The notes under the pieces are model-generated. The model had not been told where the DNA came from, did not search any database, and worked only from the letters and a program-made list of their open reading frames with translations. A stretch of 64,000 bases of DNA from Campylobacteraceae bacterium (GTDB lineage Bacteria; Campylobacterota; Campylobacteria; Campylobacterales; Campylobacteraceae), in assembly GCA_012519705.1 (NCBI GenBank), contig JAAYPR010000001.1, forward strand, positions 1-64,000, given 5' to 3'. Made by a program: the position numbers and the translations under genes. Below are positions 280-31,864 of this stretch, piece by piece (position 1 is the stretch's first letter; each line of letters starts with the position of its first letter).

Positions 280-728
280 CTCTTCTCCTTTGTTTTATAG
301 TCATAAATCATCTCAACTATCATAATAAAAACTGCTAAATTTATCATCACATCAGCGAAGTTAAACACAGCAAACTCAAACCACTTATGCCAAAAGACAT
401 AATCCACCACCCCACCGTGCAGAAATCTATCAAGCAAATTTGAACACCCTCCGCCAAAAAGCAGAGCAAAAGGGATGAAGTGCCTATTTAAAAGCTCTTT
501 TTCATATAAAAGATAAGCAAAAAGCCCACCTAAGATTAAAATTTGAAGCATTTTTAAGTGTTTTCCCAAAAATGTAAGCATCGAAAAAGCAACTCCGTCA
601 TTATATGTTAAGATGAGTGAGAAAAACTCCCCATCCCACCTAAAGCCGTTTAAAAAAACCTGTTTTATAGCCTGATCTATCAGAAAAACAGCTATAAAAA
701 TCACCCAAAACCAGACTTTTTTATGCAT
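276..728 (-). CDS. lspA: Lipoprotein signal peptidase (signal peptidase II)
   Basis: Motifs [40 protein letters not shown]. Confidence 0.95.
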
Positions 729-2061
729 TTAAAGCTTTACTAAAGAACTCTTCTACTTCATCCATTCTTTGATTGACTAAGTTTAGGTTTTTTCCCTCAA
801 GTAGAAGTCTTATAAGTTTTTCAGTTCCAGAGTATCTAAAAAGAGTTCTAATGCCTTCTTTGTTTAGGCTTGATTCTAACTCTTTTAAGCCTTCGATGCT
901 TGATAAATCTTTTTTCTCTTTTATCTTTAAATTTCTTAAAATTTGTGGATAAGGTTTGAACTTTTTACTTAGTTCACTTGCACTTTTTCCTTCGCTTAAC
1001 ATACAAGCACTAAATTGTAGAGCACTAGTTATACCATCTCCTGTTTTTGCATAGTCGCTAAAGATGATGTGCCCACTTTGCTCTCCGCCAAAATTTGAGC
1101 CTTTTTCTCTCATCATTTCAAGCACGTATTTATCCCCAACGTTACTTCTTAGAAGTGAAATACCGCTTTCTTTTAGCATCTCATCAAGCCCTTGGTTGCT
1201 CATAACAGTTGCTACAACTTTATCAGATGAGAGCATTTTTTTCTTTTTTAGATAGGTTGCTAGGATTCCTAGAAGGGCGTCTCCATCTATAACTTTTCCA
1301 TTTTCATCAACAACTACAACTCTATCAGCGTCCCCATCAAACCCAAACCCAACATCAGCTCTAAGTTTTTTAACCTCTTCAGCTAAATTTTGTGGATACA
1401 GAGCTCCGCAGTTTTCGTTAATGTTTTGTCCATTTGGTTTATCGTTTATCACAAAAACTTCAGCTCCAAGCTCCATAAAAACAGTTGGTGCTACTTTGTA
1501 GCTTGCTCCGTTTGCCACGTCTAAAACAACTCTTAATTTTCTTAGGTTTTCACCTTTTGGAAATGAGTTTTTTATATGAACTATGTATCTTCCGATAACA
1601 TCATCAACTCTTTTTGCCGCACCTATCTCCATACAAGTTTTTCTAGCGGCATTTATAAGGTCGTCATTATGCAAAATTTCTTCTATTTTTTTCTCTTCTT
1701 CAGCTTCTAATTTAAAGCCTTGGTTGTCAAAAAATTTGATTCCATTATCGTAGTAGGTATTATGTGAAGCACTTATCATGATGCCCGCATCACATCTCAT
1801 ATCTTCTGTTAAAAACGCAATCGCAGGAGTTGGCATAGGTCCTATTTGACGAACATTGTAGCCGATTGATGTTAGCCCAGCAACGATAGCTGTTTCTATC
1901 ATATAGCCACTTCTTCTAGTATCTTTTCCAACTAAAATTAAATTTGTTTGTGAGTTTTTTCTAAAGTAAATTCCTGCCGCCATTGCGATTCTCATAGCAA
2001 GTTCGGCTGTTAGTTCGCTGCCAGCCTTGCCTCTAACTCCATCTGTTCCAAAATATTTCAT
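721..2061 (-). CDS. glmM: Phosphoglucosamine mutase
   Basis: [14 protein letters not shown] start, phosphoserine loop [29 protein letters not shown]. Confidence 0.97.
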
Positions 2062-2175
2062 AAAATTAGCCCTTTTAAAATTTATAAATTTCGCTATATT
2101 TTACCAAAATAAAACTACAAATTATCTTACTTATTAATCAAGCCTTAAATTAAGCTTGTATTAAAGATTTTTTTG

Positions 2176-2181
2176 TATAAT
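2176..2181 (+). promoter_or_regulatory. Putative sigma70 -10 element (TGTATAAT) for rpsT-prfA
   Basis: TATAAT preceded by a T-rich stretch, upstream of rpsT. Confidence 0.55.
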
Positions 2182-2217
2182 TCATCTCTTAATCATATTA
2201 AATTTAAAGGTGAAAAA

Positions 2218-2490
2218 ATGGCAAACCATAAATCTGCTGCTAAAAGAGCAAGACAGAGTGTTGTAAGAACACAGAGAAACAGATTTTACAGAACTAGAAT
2301 TAAAAACATCACTAGAGCAGTTAGAGAAGCTGTAGAGAGTGGTGAAAAAGAAGTAGCACTAGATGCACTAAAAATAGCAAACAAAAGCTTCCATAGCTAT
2401 GTAAGCAAAGGCGTGCTTAAAAAAGAGACTGCTTCAAGAAAAGTTAGCCGCTTAGCAAAACTTGTAAACTCAATGGACAAAGCTGAATAA
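2218..2490 (+). CDS. rpsT: 30S ribosomal protein S20
   Basis: [14 protein letters not shown]...; start set at ATG 2218 rather than the ORF-track start at 2173. Confidence 0.96.
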
Positions 2491-2493
2491 TTT

Positions 2494-3561
2494 ATGCTAG
2501 CTGATAAACTTAAACCATTTGTAGATAGGTATAATGAAATTTCTCATCTACTTACTACCGAAGAAGTTATCAGCGATGTAGCACAGATGACTGAACTTGC
2601 TAAAGAGCAAAGCTCTTTAGAAGATATCTACAGAGCATCTACCCAGTATCTAAGCACTCTTGAGCAAATTGAAGAAAACAAAGCTCTACTTGAAGACCCA
2701 GAGCTTGGAGAACTTGCTAAAGAAGAGCTAAAAGAGCTAGAAGCAAACAAAGCAGCTCTTCAAGATGAAATCAAAGTCTTACTTATCCCAAAAGATCCAA
2801 ATGATGATAAAAACGTGTTTTTAGAACTTCGTGCCGGAACGGGCGGAGATGAAGCCGCCCTTTTTGCTGGAGATCTTTTTAACGCTTACATAAGATACGC
2901 TGAACTTAGAGGCTATAAAACCGAGATAGTTTCTACTAGCGAGGGAGCTGCTGGGGGGTTTAAAGAGGTAATTTTACTTATAAAAGGAAAAGGTGCTTAC
3001 TCAAGGCTTAAATTTGAAGGCGGAACTCACAGAGTTCAAAGAGTTCCTGCAACTGAGAGCCAAGGAAGAGTTCACACTTCAGCTATCACAGTTGCTATCA
3101 TGCCAGAAGTGGAAGATAGCGAGATAGAGATAAAAGATAGTGAAATCAAAATAGATGTTATGAGAAGTTCAGGTCACGGCGGACAGTCTGTAAACACTAC
3201 CGACTCAGCTGTTCGTATAACTCACTTACCAACTGGAATCGTTGTAACCAACCAAGACGGTAAATCTCAGCACAAAAACAAAGACGCCGCGATGAAAGTT
3301 CTAAAAGCAAGACTTTTTGAGATGCAAGAAAATGAGCGTTTGGAAAAAGAAAGAGCTGAGAGAAAAGACCAAGTTGGAACTGGGGATAGAAGTGGAAGAA
3401 TTAGAACTTACAACTACCCGCAAAATAGAATTTCAGACCACCGTATAAATTTGACTCTTTACAGACTTGATGCGATTATGGAAGCTGGGCTTTTTGATGA
3501 GATTATAGACCCGCTTATCGCTCACTACCAAGCTGAAGCTGTTGGATCTGACGAAGAATAA
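2494..3561 (+). CDS. prfA: Peptide chain release factor 1
   Basis: GGQ motif ([24 protein letters not shown]); RF1 family length and architecture. Confidence 0.96.
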
Positions 3562-3586
3562 AATAGTAAAATTTAGAATTATTGGA

Positions 3587-3592
3587 TATAAT
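3587..3592 (+). promoter_or_regulatory. Putative -10 element (GGATATAAT) for the usp gene
   Basis: TATAAT 24 bp upstream of the ATG at 3616. Confidence 0.5.
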
Positions 3593-3615
3593 TTACCTTT
3601 CCAAAGGAGCTAATT

Positions 3616-4434
3616 ATGAAAAAAGTTGTCATTTGTATAGATGAAACCCCACTAAATAGAGCAGTTTGTGACTATGGCTTTTTAATAGCAAAAAATTTAA
3701 ACTTAGATGTGACTTTTCTTTATGTTGTAAAAACAGCAGTTCTTTCGCCAAATTTCTTAGGTTTGGCAACAGGAGGGCTTGTTGTAACCCATGAAGATGT
3801 TTTACTTGATGATGTAAAACCATCAAAAGATGAGATTGAAAAAGGCGAGGAGCTACTTCAAAAAGCAAAAGAGTTAGCAGACGAGCAAGGCATTAATGCA
3901 ACCACTCAGCTACAAAGTGGAGACTTGATAGAAATTCTTATAAACTATGAAAACGCTCACACTATCGTTGTTGGCGTTGACGAAGAAAACAATGTAATAA
4001 AAGACAATATCATAGCACTAAGCAGAGAGTGTGAGTCAAAACTTTTCTTTATAAATAAGGAGTTTTCAGAGGTTAAATCTTTGCTTGTTGCATTTGACGG
4101 GGAGCAAAACTCCGTAAGAACTCTAAATTTCTTAAAAGATAGTAAAGTTTTTGGAAAAGAGCTAGAGTATCACGTAATAAATGTAAACAAAGATATAGAA
4201 AAATCTCAAACTATTTTAGAACAAGCAAAAGAGATAATGAAAAATGAAAACGCTAAATTTGTAACCCTTAGCGGAAATGTTTCTGAAGAAATAATCGCAT
4301 ATAGAAGGGCAAATGAGCTTAGTCTTTATGTGATGGGAAGCTTTAGCAAGAGTATTTTTTCAACTCTGTTTTTTGGAAGCACTTCTCAAACTGTGGTTGA
4401 GCAGGCGTGGGTACCTGTTTATATAGCGAAATAA
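3616..4434 (+). CDS. Universal stress protein (UspA family, tandem domains)
   Basis: Usp-like fold signature, C-terminal GSFSKSIFSTLFFGSTSQTVVEQAWVPVYI. Confidence 0.85.
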   Translation: MKKVVICIDETPLNRAVCDYGFLIAKNLNLDVTFLYVVKTAVLSPNFLGLATGGLVVTHEDVLLDDVKPSKDEIEKGEELLQKAKELADEQGINATTQLQSGDLIEILINYENAHTIVVGVDEENNVIKDNIIALSRECESKLFFINKEFSEVKSLLVAFDGEQNSVRTLNFLKDSKVFGKELEYHVINVNKDIEKSQTILEQAKEIMKNENAKFVTLSGNVSEEIIAYRRANELSLYVMGSFSKSIFSTLFFGSTSQTVVEQAWVPVYIAK

Positions 4435-4449
4435 TTTATAGTATTAAAT

Positions 4450-4680
4450 TTGACAAACTCACTTCAAATTTACAAAAAACTTCTAGGGGAGAAAAAGGTA
4501 GAAATCATAGAATTTCTAGCCACCTCTCCCGATAAATACGGCTTTATAAATCTAACTATAGATGAAATTTGCAAAGCCACAAACTCAAGCAAACCAACTG
4601 TCATAGACACTTTAGCACTTCTTAGGAAAAAAGGAGTGATGAAGCGTATAAAAAACGGAGTTTATAAACTAACCTTGTAA
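4450..4680 (+). CDS. Small winged-helix protein, resembles RepL-type replication/maintenance proteins
   Basis: 76 aa; LTIDEICKATNSSKPTVIDTLALLRKKGVMKRIKNGVYKL is a clear wHTH; TTG start is an inference. Confidence 0.55.
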   Translation: MTNSLQIYKKLLGEKKVEIIEFLATSPDKYGFINLTIDEICKATNSSKPTVIDTLALLRKKGVMKRIKNGVYKLTL

Positions 4681-5223
4681 AAACAGATGTGTTATAAGGA
4701 TTTTCACCCCTATACCTATAAGAACCAAACCACCTAAAATAAGGGCTTTATCTTTTAGCTTCTCGCCCATCTTTTTACCTAAATAACAAGCCACCACACA
4801 AAGTAAAAAGCAAACTATGAAAATAACAAAAATTGCTTTTAAAACACTAAAACCACCAAAAGCAAAAGTAACGCCAACAGCCATAGCATCGATACTTGTG
4901 GCTATCGCTCCAAGAACTAGCTCTTTTAAACCTAAGTTTGAAACACACTCATCATCTTCTAAGTTTTTAGCATCTTTTATCATCTTTATGCCCAAAAATG
5001 AGAGTATAAAAAACGCTATAAAATGATCAATGCTTGCTATATATGAGTAGAAACTGGCACCTAAAAAATAGCCAAAAACAGGCATCAACCCTTGAAAAAA
5101 AGCAAAAATAAAAGAAATTTTGATTATATTTGAAAGTTTTAAATTTAAACATTTTGCACCATTTGCTATACAAAGTGCCACACTATCCATAGAAAGTCCA
5201 AAAGCTAGTAAAAAAAGCTCCAT
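4669..5223 (-). CDS. mntP: Manganese efflux pump MntP
   Basis: Two DUF204-like halves, SMDSVALCIANG and TSIDAMAVGVTFAFGG. Confidence 0.92.
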   Translation of the reverse strand: MELFLLAFGLSMDSVALCIANGAKCLNLKLSNIIKISFIFAFFQGLMPVFGYFLGASFYSYIASIDHFIAFFILSFLGIKMIKDAKNLEDDECVSNLGLKELVLGAIATSIDAMAVGVTFAFGGFSVLKAIFVIFIVCFLLCVVACYLGKKMGEKLKDKALILGGLVLIGIGVKILITHLFLQG

Positions 5224-7305: not shown

Positions 7306-8141
7306 AAAGAATAGGAGCACACGTTAGTGCAAGTGGAGGTGTGCAAAATGCACCGTTAAATGCTAAAGAAATCGGAGCAGATGCTTTTGCTCTGTTTGTT
7401 AAAAACCAACGCCAGTGGAGTGCAAAGCCACTTGAGCAAACAAACATAGATGAATTTAACGAAAACTTAAAACTAGCAAATATCAAAAAAGAGCATATTT
7501 TACCACACAATGGATATCTTATAAATTTAGGACATCCCGAAGCGGAAAATAGAGAAAAAAGCATAAACTCATTTATAGATGAGATAGAAAGAGCAAATTT
7601 GCTAGGGCTTAAAATGATAAATTTCCACCCTGGTTCACACTTAAGAAAAATCAGCGAAGAAGAGTGTCTCTCTTTAATAAGCGAAAGTATAAACTACATC
7701 ATCGCTAACACAACTAACATTAAGTTAGTTATAGAAAACACAGCTGGGCAAGGCTCAAATTTAGGTTATAAGCTAGAGCATTTAAGTTACTTAATCGCTA
7801 ACACAACTAACAAAGATAGAATTGGGGTTTGCATAGATACATGCCATCTTTTTGCTGGCGGATACGACATAAGAACAAAAGAAGCGTATGAAAAAACAAT
7901 GAGCGAGTTTGATAGGCTTATAGGTTATGAGTATCTAAGTGGGATGCACTTAAACGACTCAAAAAACGAGCTTGGAGTTAGAAAAGATAGGCATGATAGT
8001 TTGGGTGAGGGAACTATCGGGCTTGAAGCGTTTAGAAATATAATGCAGGATAAAAATATAGATGAAATTCCGCTTATCCTAGAAACTATAAATCCTGAAA
8101 TTTGGGCGGAAGAAATCCAAATTTTAAGACAAATGTGTTAG
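7302..8141 (+). CDS. nfo: Endonuclease IV
   Basis: [60 protein letters not shown] start overlapping the previous stop. Confidence 0.95.
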
Positions 8142-27866: not shown

Positions 27867-28620
27867 AATTTCAAATTTAACCACCAAAATCGGCAAAAGA
27901 GAGCTTTTAAAAGATATAAATTTAAGTTTTGAGAGTGGAGAGTTAAACGCTTTAGTTGGTCCAAACGGGGCTGGAAAAAGCACGATTTTAAGAAGCATTT
28001 CAAATTTAGCCACCGAAATTTCTGGAAGCGTTGAGCTAGACGGCGAAAATTTACTAAGGTTAAGTAGAGCAGAGATGGCTAAAAAATTAGCTTTTATGAC
28101 TCAGTTTTATCAAAATATAAATTTGACCGTAAGCGATGTTTTTAGCCTTAGTAGAAGGGTTTTAAGCGATGGAAGCTTAACTAAAATCGACCATGAAAAA
28201 ATCGCTGAAATGGCAGAGCTTTTAAACTTAAACTCATGGCTTGATATAAGCTTGGCAAATTTAAGTGGTGGGGAGAGACAAAAAGTTTTGATAGCAGCCG
28301 CACTTCTTGGAGAGCCTAAAATTTTGCTTTTAGATGAGCCTATTTCACACCTTGACCCTAAAAACCAGCACGAAATGCTTGAGCTTATAAGACGCGTTAC
28401 AAAAGAGCAAAATATCATAACCATCATAGTTTTGCACGACATTCACCACGCACTTCACTATGCTGATAAAGTCGTTATGCTAAAAAATGGTGAAATTTTA
28501 GGAGCAAAACCAAGCCGTGAGATAAGTAGAGATGACTTGCACGCTCTTTTTGATATGGAGCTTTCTATTCATGAGATAAGCGGGCATAAATTTGTTTATT
28601 TTGGGCATAAGCATTTATAA
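27856..28620 (+). CDS. ABC transporter ATP-binding protein (FepC/BtuD class)
   Basis: Walker A GPNGAGKST, signature LSGGERQKVLIA, Walker B ILLLDEP. Confidence 0.94.
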   Translation: MVLKISNLTTKIGKRELLKDINLSFESGELNALVGPNGAGKSTILRSISNLATEISGSVELDGENLLRLSRAEMAKKLAFMTQFYQNINLTVSDVFSLSRRVLSDGSLTKIDHEKIAEMAELLNLNSWLDISLANLSGGERQKVLIAAALLGEPKILLLDEPISHLDPKNQHEMLELIRRVTKEQNIITIIVLHDIHHALHYADKVVMLKNGEILGAKPSREISRDDLHALFDMELSIHEISGHKFVYFGHKHL

Positions 28621-28680
28621 TTTTTTGACTATTTTTTATAAAATTGAAATATTTTACTACTTTTGTTTATATTTTTTAAA

Positions 28681-28803
28681 GGAGAAAGGGGGCTTGAATT
28701 ACGAAGTCGCTCCCCTTTCCCCCTTGAACCCCTAATCCCCCGACGACGTTCAAGGTTGCTGTGCTACGCACAGGTTTAACTGCTTTTGCTGCACAAAAGT
28801 TTT
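28681..28803. repeat. GC-rich intergenic element with several hairpins
   Basis: AAAGGGG...CCCCTTT (28685-28718), CTGTGC-TAC-GCACAG (28759-28773), CTTTTG-CTGCA-CAAAAG (28783-28799); unlike flanking AT-rich DNA. Confidence 0.5.
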
Positions 28804-28858
28804 TAGGTATGTATACATAAAAAGTTGTAAAGTTTAACCCGAAATTACTCAAATTTAG

Positions 28859-28864
28859 TATAAT
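28859..28864 (+). promoter_or_regulatory. Putative -10 element for the Sel1-repeat gene
   Basis: TTTAGTATAATTC upstream of ATG 28896. Confidence 0.5.
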
Positions 28865-28895
28865 TCTCACATTAAATTTAACCAAAGGAAATCTT

Positions 28896-29378
28896 ATGAA
28901 AAGAGCTATATCAGGGCTTTTAGCCACGTTTTTATTAAGCAGTTTAAATGCAGTTGATTTAAATATAGATGAGTTAAGGGCTGAATGTTTGGGTTCAAAC
29001 CCTGTGTCGTGTAATGAACTTGGACTTTTATACGCTGAAGGTAGAGGCATGGAGCAAAACTACACAAAAGCTTTTGAGTTGTTCGAGATAGCTTGTAAAG
29101 GTAAATGTGCTATGGGGTGTGGAAATTTAGGTATTTTATATCTAAATGCTTGGGGAGTTGAGCAGGATGACAAAAAAGCTAGCGAGTATCTTCTAAAAGC
29201 CTGTAATGGTGGCGACGTGGTAGGGTGCTATCATCTTGGGTTTTTATACAAAGAGGGTGCTGGGGTAGAAAAAGACCTAAACAAATCTAAAAAGTATTTC
29301 CAAAAAGCTTGCAATGAAGGCATGAACGAAGCGTGTAAACAGATAGGAATTGAGAGGGGATGTTGCGGGGGAATGTAG
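28896..29378 (+). CDS. Exported Sel1-like repeat / Hcp-like cysteine-rich protein
   Basis: Signal peptide; SLRs with paired Cys (ACKGKCAMGCGNLGILYLNAWGVEQDDKKA...). Confidence 0.85.
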   Translation: MKRAISGLLATFLLSSLNAVDLNIDELRAECLGSNPVSCNELGLLYAEGRGMEQNYTKAFELFEIACKGKCAMGCGNLGILYLNAWGVEQDDKKASEYLLKACNGGDVVGCYHLGFLYKEGAGVEKDLNKSKKYFQKACNEGMNEACKQIGIERGCCGGM

Positions 29379-29642
29379 GATTTTAAATTTTTAAATGGAT
29401 ATATTTGATAATTAATTTGAGAATTTACAATATGTATAGCTTAAGAATATAATAAAAATTATTATTTGCTATAATAATATATTAAATTTTTCGTTTACAA
29501 GACAACTTAGGGTTAGTTTTGGGTGTATAAGTATAAATTTAATAAATAAAAACTTTTTTAGCTCTTCAGTTGTAGTAGCTGTTTTAAAACATAACTTGCT
29601 CAAAAAAGCATGTTAAAGTAATAAAAAATGCTAAAAATATGG

Positions 29643-29648
29643 TAGAAT
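29643..29648 (+). promoter_or_regulatory. Putative -10 element (TAGAAT) for the ImmA/IrrE gene
   Basis: TAGAAT 37 bp upstream of ATG 29685; imperfect inverted repeat AACTTGCT-CAAAAA-AGCATGTT at 29593-29614. Confidence 0.4.
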
Positions 29649-29684
29649 CTTACACAGCATGAATTTATAAAGGAGGTGAGTGTT

Positions 29685-30173
29685 ATGCCTGACTATGGAA
29701 GAGCTGTTTTCGAGGCTCAAAATTTATTAGCAGAGAGTGGAGCTGGAAAAAACGGAACTGTAAATCTTGCAACAGTGCTTAGACATCTTGATTTAAGAGC
29801 TATATATGGCGATGATATGATAGAAGAAGCTGTGCTTGATCCAACGCAAGAAACTATCTTCGTTAGAAAAGATGACTCGCCTATAACTAGAAAGTATTTT
29901 TCTATAGCTCATGAGATAGGTCATTGGGTGCTGCATACAAGAGATAGGGTAAGACCAAGAATAAATTTTAATAATGGCAACAGTTATTCTAAAGAGGAAA
30001 TAATAGAGGAACAGGAAGCAAATGCTTTCGCAGCAGAGCTTCTTATGCCGTATGATGAGGTTGAGCGATTAGCTATGGCAGGTTATAGTATAGAAGATCT
30101 CATGAGATATTTTAATGTTTCTTATGAATTTGCACGATATAGGTATATCTTTGTTGTGGGGAGCTCGTATTGA
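29685..30173 (+). CDS. ImmA/IrrE-family metallo-endopeptidase
   Basis: HEIGHWVLH zinc motif plus EEQEANAFAAELLMP; AAAGGAGGTGAG RBS before ATG 29685. Confidence 0.92.
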   Translation: MPDYGRAVFEAQNLLAESGAGKNGTVNLATVLRHLDLRAIYGDDMIEEAVLDPTQETIFVRKDDSPITRKYFSIAHEIGHWVLHTRDRVRPRINFNNGNSYSKEEIIEEQEANAFAAELLMPYDEVERLAMAGYSIEDLMRYFNVSYEFARYRYIFVVGSSY

Positions 30174-30790
30174 GTGATGATATGTTGGTAAATGATGCAC
30201 TTGAAGATCTTGATTTGGAAGGCAGAATAGAATCTAAGAGTAAGTTTAATGTATTTAAATGGTTAAAAAAACATCTATCTTTAGATTTATTTTTTACCTT
30301 TTTTTCTAGAGCATTTTTTTCATATTTGCCACTAACTGTTTATTCTGTGATAAATACACCATTTTTTGAGCAGTTTAATGAGGGAGACAAAGATCTTTTC
30401 CAAGGGCTTTTTTTAGCTTTAAGTTATGTTTTTATATCTCAACTGAATAGTACAAATAAAAGACAAGAATCATCTTATGAATTTATGCATGCTTTAAGAG
30501 TATTTTGTGGAGTAATATGTATAGTTTTCTCTACAACTAATGAATTTGAGTATCGTCCGTGGATGTTTCTTTTCTTTCTTATAGTTTCAATGATAACGTT
30601 GTTTTACACTGCAAGAAGGCAAGTTATTGAAAAAAATATTTTAAAAAGCCAATCTTTGTCACATGAAAAAAGAGTAAAAAAAGTTGATTTTCCCGAGCAG
30701 TATACATATAAGTCTAAGTTGCTTGATGAGTATTTTAAATTAATAATGAAAAAAAATACAGATACGCCAAATAATAAAGACGAACAATAA
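30170..30790 (+). CDS. Uncharacterised multi-TM membrane protein coupled to the ImmA/IrrE gene
   Basis: About 4 hydrophobic segments, acidic N-terminus; TTG start overlaps the upstream stop (TTGA). Confidence 0.7.
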   Translation: MSDDMLVNDALEDLDLEGRIESKSKFNVFKWLKKHLSLDLFFTFFSRAFFSYLPLTVYSVINTPFFEQFNEGDKDLFQGLFLALSYVFISQLNSTNKRQESSYEFMHALRVFCGVICIVFSTTNEFEYRPWMFLFFLIVSMITLFYTARRQVIEKNILKSQSLSHEKRVKKVDFPEQYTYKSKLLDEYFKLIMKKNTDTPNNKDEQ

Positions 30791-30819
30791 AATTTCAACT
30801 CAAATTTGAGTTGAAATTT
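30790..30819. terminator. Perfect 30-bp palindrome between convergent genes
   Basis: AAATTTCAACTCAAATTTGAGTTGAAATTT. Confidence 0.65.
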
Positions 30820-30828
30820 GAAGTATAA

Positions 30829-30859
30829 ATGTACCAAATTTATACAAAATTTGGTACAT
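30829..30859. terminator. Second hairpin between convergent genes
   Basis: ATGTACCAAATTT-ATACA-AAATTTGGTACAT, perfect 13-bp arms. Confidence 0.65.
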
Positions 30860-30871
30860 AAAATTAAATAA

Positions 30872-31864
30872 TTAAATCGGTAAAACCCTAATATTTGGGC
30901 TTAAATTCTCTTTTAAAACCGCTTCTATAGCAAAAAGAGTTCCAGTTCCGCTACTTGCACAGCCACTACATGCACCTAAATATCTAATGTAAATATCTAT
31001 TTTCCCATCATCGCTATCTCTGATATCTACTATGTCCATATCGCCACCATCCATTCTTAGCATTGGGCGGATATTTTCATCTACTAGGCTCTCGACTGCT
31101 TTAAATCTGCCTATTGTATTTAACTCTTCAAAGCTCATATCAAGTGTGCCATCGCTCGTTTTTGCATCAGCGATAGCAGAGAGTTTATCGTTTTCCATCT
31201 CAGCTCTAGTTTCCTTTAAGATATCTTCTAAATAGTACTCTCTATCTTCGTGTCCGCCAGGTCTTACACAGCTTTTACAAAACCCACCAGCTTTTGTGTA
31301 CTGGGTGATTTGTTCAACTGTTTTTAAATCATTTAGCTTGATAACTTCTTTTATCGTTCCAAGGCTTACTCTTGCACACTCACAAACGATTATCTCATCT
31401 TCAAAGTGCTCCGGATCTACCCCTTTATAGTGAGCGGCAGCAGCCTTTATAACATCATACGCCATAACTGAGCAGTGCATTTTTTGCGGTGGAACAGCTG
31501 GGGTTTCTGGGTTATCACGCATAGCGTGCTCAACTTCGATGTTTGTGATTTTTACCGCTTGATCAACAGTTTTTCCGATACAAAGTTCAGCCATAGTATC
31601 ACTACTTGCGATTGCTGAGCCACAGCCAAAGCTTTTAAATTTAGCATCTATAATTGTGTCAGTTGCTTCATCTACTAACCAGTAAAGCCTTACCGCATCC
31701 CCACAACTCTCAGCTCCAAAGTCAGCAACTATAAGTTTAGCACCTCTTTCTTTTGCTTCTTCTTCTGTGATTTCACCCATAAATCTTGGGTTGTTCATTC
31801 TATCTTGAACTTTTTGAGAGTAATCTTCCCAAAATGAACCACTTATTAATCCATCTTTTGCCAT
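30872..31864 (-). CDS. nifU: Iron-sulfur cluster scaffold NifU
   Basis: IscU-like N-domain, central CECARVSLGTI...CKSCVRPGG, C-terminal CSGCASSGTGTLFAIEAVL. Confidence 0.95.
   Translation of the reverse strand: MAKDGLISGSFWEDYSQKVQDRMNNPRFMGEITEEEAKERGAKLIVADFGAESCGDAVRLYWLVDEATDTIIDAKFKSFGCGSAIASSDTMAELCIGKTVDQAVKITNIEVEHAMRDNPETPAVPPQKMHCSVMAYDVIKAAAAHYKGVDPEHFEDEIIVCECARVSLGTIKEVIKLNDLKTVEQITQYTKAGGFCKSCVRPGGHEDREYYLEDILKETRAEMENDKLSAIADAKTSDGTLDMSFEELNTIGRFKAVESLVDENIRPMLRMDGGDMDIVDIRDSDDGKIDIYIRYLGACSGCASSGTGTLFAIEAVLKENLSPNIRVLPI

Follow-up and report, generated by a model that had tools for sequence, protein, structure and literature searches.

A repressor-less M78 peptidase coupled to a membrane protein: one example of a recurrent gene arrangement in Campylobacterota, prophages and phages

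Peptidases of the M78 (ImmA/IrrE) family are known to cut XRE repressors on single-stranded DNA or other stress signals (PMC10904395). The closest described systems are ImmA/ImmR, PprI(IrrE)/DdrO and CapP/CapH, and close to these stand the COG2856-Xre units predicted to be toxin-antitoxin systems, which resemble the locus described here in having a Zn peptidase in a mobile, patchily distributed two-gene unit at home in phages and plasmids (PMC2701414). The COG2856 units of Makarova 2009 always include Xre, a peptidase with a membrane protein and no Xre is not among them, and three pairs of Xre with a membrane protein were left out of that study because no membrane component was known in type II systems (PMC2701414). 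Among open-licence PMC papers we found no published account of a peptidase and a membrane protein paired without Xre. Our locus lies in a stretch of 64,000 nucleotides from a Campylobacteraceae genome (the window), whose matches are kin to Campylobacter and Helicobacter records. It shares the peptidase family, fold and catalytic motif of ImmA/ImmR, PprI/DdrO and CapP/CapH, and like them it consists of two genes, the partner being a possible substrate; it differs in that a membrane protein replaces the XRE-type HTH repressor and in that an HTH is absent in, before and after the peptidase. What is new here is the kind of partner; the peptidase family itself is known. We consider it quite possible, if short of probable, that the pair is a mobile module of a protease and a membrane effector, toxin-antitoxin-like or exclusion-like, in which the peptidase regulates its partner by acting on the partner's tail.

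The peptidase gene (29685..30173, plus strand) runs from an ATG at 29685, with a GTG at 29676 as a possible alternative start, to a stop at 30171-30173, and has a Shine-Dalgarno-like AAGGAGG on its 5' side (29670..29676, plus strand), read from the sequence. The first-pass annotation had seen an intact zinc-peptidase signature in this frame, and the 162-aa product bears this out: it matches PF06114 (Peptidase_M78) with E 4.7e-21 and 75.3 bits (cut-off 22), and both HEIGH and EANAFAAELLMP are intact, so that the HEXXH zinc motif and the downstream EXXA(N/D)XFAAXLLMP helix that define membership of M78 are present. The catalytic motif is conserved, H76, E77, H80 and E109 being invariant across 12 relatives. 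The AlphaFold2 model is good (pLDDT 90.3) and has the IrrE/CapP fold, with Foldseek probabilities of 1.00 against 3dti, 8sln and 7t5t and E values of 9.8e-6 for IrrE/PprI and 6.2e-4 for CapP. The protein is an intact, HTH-less, single-domain member of the M78 family; at 162 aa, against about 290 aa for CapP and PprI, it is missing their extra C-terminal region.

The membrane-protein gene (30170..30790, plus strand) begins at a TTG at 30170, which overlaps the peptidase stop by the 4 nt TTGA, and ends with a stop at 30788-30790; a Shine-Dalgarno-like GGGGAG, also read from the sequence, lies 5' of the TTG within the end of the peptidase gene (30158..30163, plus strand). Its 206-aa product has an acidic N-terminal tail, four predicted membrane helices at about 38-62, 71-94, 101-122 and 130-150, on which hydropathy and the AlphaFold2 model agree, and a charged C-terminal tail, in keeping with the multi-TM protein with an acidic N-terminus that had been described at this overlap. 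Pfam, PHROGs, NCBIfam and PADLOC hold no family that it matches, and the PDB gave no match by sequence or by fold, the model being weak (mean pLDDT 59), so that a new fold is not implied. With four libraries and the PDB giving no match, we rejected a known family for the protein, and with it a characterised family of unrelated role, which the first-pass annotation had named as evidence against its reading.

Two hairpins close the two-gene unit: the first lies directly 3' of the membrane gene and is terminator-like, with a T run on the minus-strand reading (30790..30819), and the second separates the pair from the convergent nifU-like gene (30829..30859). As had been noticed at first reading, an HTH partner is not visible; we found no HTH gene adjoining the pair, no HTH within it, and no XRE-family HTH repressor in the fused or adjacent place that such a repressor takes in ImmA/ImmR. 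The inverted repeat AACTTGCT-CAAAAA-AGCATGTT (29593..29614), on the other hand, had been put forward as a plausible operator and does not hold up as one. When each side is extended by one base it has 9-bp arms with one mismatch, yet the AT-rich 305-bp stretch in which it lies contains 11 repeats that good where 7.5 are expected, the best score has p about 0.5, and a search of the genome for a second operator-like site with 0-2 mismatches found none. Because such a stretch yields such repeats and there is no second copy, we rejected the operator and did not count the repeat as evidence.

Could the peptidase nevertheless be a conventional repressor cutter? The membrane protein would then be a sensor or anchor that holds or activates the peptidase, and the true substrate would be a repressor encoded elsewhere, as in ImmA-ImmR, PprI-DdrO and CapP-CapH. 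We regard this as rather unlikely, while noting that the characterised M78 peptidases all cut HTH repressors (PMC10904395, PMC2701414), that a separate sensor is plausible for a peptidase without the C-terminal region of CapP and PprI, and that the 1.72-Mb genome encodes four HTH_3 proteins. However, none of the four is near the pair, the operator proposed for such a repressor is insignificant and unrepeated, and the pair crosses genera without a repressor, so that a matching one would be needed in every new host.

That the pair moves is apparent from its distribution. It is present in 1 of the 14 genomes of the genus and absent from the other 13, and in 3 of the 153 genomes of the family, each time at a different site. 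A search of 199 relatives with the membrane protein gave only two further carriers (G112 and G076), a profile search of the 153 family genomes gave no further credible copy of that protein, and a phylum sample of 397 genomes added one carrier, the Helicobacter genome G381, whose locus is that of Helicobacter labacensis. These are the only relatives of the window membrane protein that we found; searched on its own, it had no matches in the genome contigs and none in the viral contigs. In all three of these loci the membrane gene is immediately preceded by the peptidase gene. As neighbours of the pair, G112 has a YeeE/YedE-like transporter and a moaE-like gene, G076 (UBA1713) has an efflux outer-membrane gene and a CorC-like gene, and the window has iron-transport and nifU-like genes. 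An empty site is seen in G005, where about 30 bp separate the end of the iron-transport gene from the nifU-like gene; the window has 2.25 kb at this place, which hold a Sel1-repeat gene and the pair. The first-pass annotation had suggested looking for the pair in variable loci across Campylobacterota, and variable loci are where we see it: the pair is an accessory cassette, patchy and mobile, and as a two-gene unit of this kind it resembles toxin-antitoxin systems. The Sel1-repeat protein (28896-29378) shares with the pair the segment that is absent from G005, the window from 28620 to 30872 is a variable site on the nifU-like side, and the gene by the 3' end of the nifU-like gene varies in the genus (iron-transport, outer-membrane efflux, DUF262-like and others).

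The arrangement itself is far more widespread than the four-helix protein. With HTH-less peptidases scoring at least 100 bits against the M78 profile, a threshold picked after the scores were seen, 29 of 35 are followed within -60 to +15 nt by a gene for a membrane protein of 60-260 aa, compared with 49 of 785 other genes in the same loci (6%) under the same partner test (Fisher p about 1e-26); without the score threshold the count is 36 of 63 (p 3e-23). In these counts helix calls rest on hydropathy and HTH calls on a detector made from seven sequences. Peptidases with partners served as seeds for the second viral search; a scan of the phylum that was not so seeded, being built on the window subfamily of the peptidase and blind to partners, had the same outcome, in that all nine of the next-best peptidases with enough flanking DNA have a small membrane partner, with an overlap of 4-20 nt, a hydrophilic tail of 50-90 aa and two membrane helices. 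The same gene order occurs in viral contigs, E. coli, Gordonia phages and a Parcubacteria MAG (L036). Rare co-occurrence had been named as a result that would tell against the proposal, and the counts give the opposite: the window pair is a real coupled pair without an HTH partner and one example of a recurrent arrangement. An HTH neighbour is found as well for only 1 of the 37 peptidases that have a membrane partner, a further point against a repressor substrate for which the membrane protein would serve as sensor or anchor.

The association also holds when read from the other gene. Starting from membrane partners alone, all 11 intact loci (4 four-helix, 7 two-helix) adjoin a peptidase, and the only copy without one, L192, is a decayed remnant; weak membrane-protein matches in L032, L188, L194, L198 and L199 were set aside as spurious, having internal stops or no peptidase or partner signal. 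Might the two genes lie side by side without any relation, or be the decayed remainder of an ImmA/ImmR unit whose repressor is gone? What speaks for this is L033, where a peptidase 53% identical to that of the window has no membrane partner and lies beside an HTH-peptidase fusion. The pairing, however, is seen again in other genera and orders, much more often than the background would give, with both genes intact, and because of the reverse test and the co-occurrence count we consider chance neighbours, or decay, very improbable. The peptidase can stand alone, as in L033; a search there for a remnant of a membrane gene found none. The L033 locus (452-4949) is an island of Helicobacter sp. 13S00401-1 with three M78 proteins, namely an HTH-peptidase fusion, the lone relative and another fusion overlapping a PIN-like gene, and two DUF4065/Panacea-like ORFs lie between its M78 genes; besides the HTH-peptidase fusion, we take the neighbours of the lone peptidase to be a Panacea-type antitoxin and a PIN toxin.

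How are the different membrane partners related to each other? The two-helix partners form groups that are joined by profile comparison. Homology of the four-helix window partner to them is unsupported (HHalign probability 3% or less). A tree of the peptidases places the window subfamily in a group of five with 97% SH-aLRT support, and partner type clusters on this tree. With two unrelated-looking types of partner clustered on the tree of the peptidase, we conclude that peptidases of a similar kind have been joined to membrane proteins of more than one kind, and since the relatedness of the four-helix protein is not demonstrable, function carried over to it from the two-helix partners is an analogy only. 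Identities are 39, 35 and 28% for the membrane partner, against 60, 48 and 48% for the peptidase; judged from these values the partner evolves faster than the peptidase. Fast evolution is common in effectors or targets.

Many relatives of the pair are cargo of prophages and phages. In E. coli a prophage-region pair is found in 68 of 5,426 complete genomes at 99% identity or more, and in the three genomes that we read it follows the phage DNA-ejection genes next to dinD, so that the E. coli pairs are cargo at the ends of prophage ejection-gene clusters. In a Helicobacter prophage the pair follows a late tail-type gene. In Gordonia phages, where the host replicon is a temperate phage, it lies between tail genes and the integrase; Polly 29/30 and ThankyouJordi 33/34, annotated as 'metalloprotease' and 'membrane protein' or hypothetical, have as in the window an M78 peptidase and then a membrane gene with a 4-nt overlap, the partner being two-helix there and four-helix in the window. 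We found no function for these annotated pairs. Two peptidase copies of equal score occur in one genome (G217:C1:264322 and 449711, L058), suggesting two prophages with the same cargo. Cargo positions of this kind are typical of genes that serve the lysogen, and may suit an anti-phage, exclusion or addiction role. The first-pass annotation had proposed a membrane-linked protease switch for stress, toxin-antitoxin function or phage defence; what fits the variable loci and the prophage-cargo relatives is a membrane-linked protease module with an accessory role, be it defence, exclusion or toxin-antitoxin.

The same settings raise the question of a cassette for lysogenic conversion or superinfection exclusion, in which the membrane protein would block phage DNA entry constantly and the peptidase would act on a phage protein. 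P22 carries sieA in its DNA-ejection gene region, a cargo position like that of the E. coli pairs behind their DNA-ejection genes, and many relatives are prophage or phage cargo. Yet the pair in the window is on the chromosome and its neighbours are not phage genes, searches of PHROGs and Pfam gave no match and no sequence link to a known exclusion protein, and a constitutive block would need no strictly coupled protease. We consider a cassette of this sort improbable.

We return to the preferred reading, a peptidase that regulates its membrane partner. The membrane protein would be the acting part, with either the cell membrane or phage DNA that enters the cell as its target. The HTH-less M78 peptidase, coupled to it on the same message, would be its dedicated regulator, working on the partner's exposed, flexible cytosolic tail and either keeping the partner harmless or freeing its activity on a stress or phage signal. 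The recurrence of the arrangement, the 11 of 11 intact partners beside a peptidase, the conserved motif, the faster evolution of the partner, the mobility and the prophage-cargo relatives were counted in favour of a regulator and an effector. To our knowledge every M78 peptidase of known substrate cuts an HTH repressor, which counts against cleavage of the partner; the lone peptidase of L033 also counts against the reading. What we infer is that the partner is both substrate and effector, which way control runs and what signal sets it off.

Comparison with defence systems leads only to the peptidase. PADLOC 2.0.0 matched the peptidase domain alone (CapP, RmrA) and none of its models matched the membrane partners; the likeness to RosmerTA (RmrA, E 1.5e-11) and PD-Lambda-2 (PD-Lambda-2_B, E 5.8e-4) is confined to the peptidase part of models that are 360-400 aa long. 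Other peptidase-led loci were seen in passing. The window genome has a second HTH-less M78 peptidase (G000:C30 around 7375-7701; L002 54-2641, minus strand) in the order two-helix membrane protein, peptidase, 478-aa protein, an order shared by G028, G236, G250, G254 and G255, where a PF14350 Beta_protein comes last (E 1.3e-31 in L014). Elsewhere (L016, L019, L023, L039, L040, L043) an M78 peptidase is followed directly by a protein of 290-460 aa with a recurring 'SFDLANATEYK'-like start, which to us recalls nucleotide cyclases; the one in L040 had no Pfam match. The M78 peptidase with this protein is a possible further peptidase-led module.

More generally, the pair is possibly an undescribed accessory switch, maybe anti-viral or toxin-antitoxin-like. 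It is a more tentative proposal that it belongs to a widespread and hitherto undescribed kind of two-gene module, immune or toxin-antitoxin, whose M78 peptidase cuts a membrane effector, the window holding a lineage-specific four-helix version; if this is true, these would be the first M78 peptidases with a membrane protein as substrate instead of a repressor. The pair is only about 1.1 kb long and is found in E. coli too. M78 peptidases have so far been understood as repressor cutters, and a large set that is repressor-less and paired with membrane proteins would imply that the family has a second way of acting, and that prophages and variable loci hold a new class of membrane systems under protease control.
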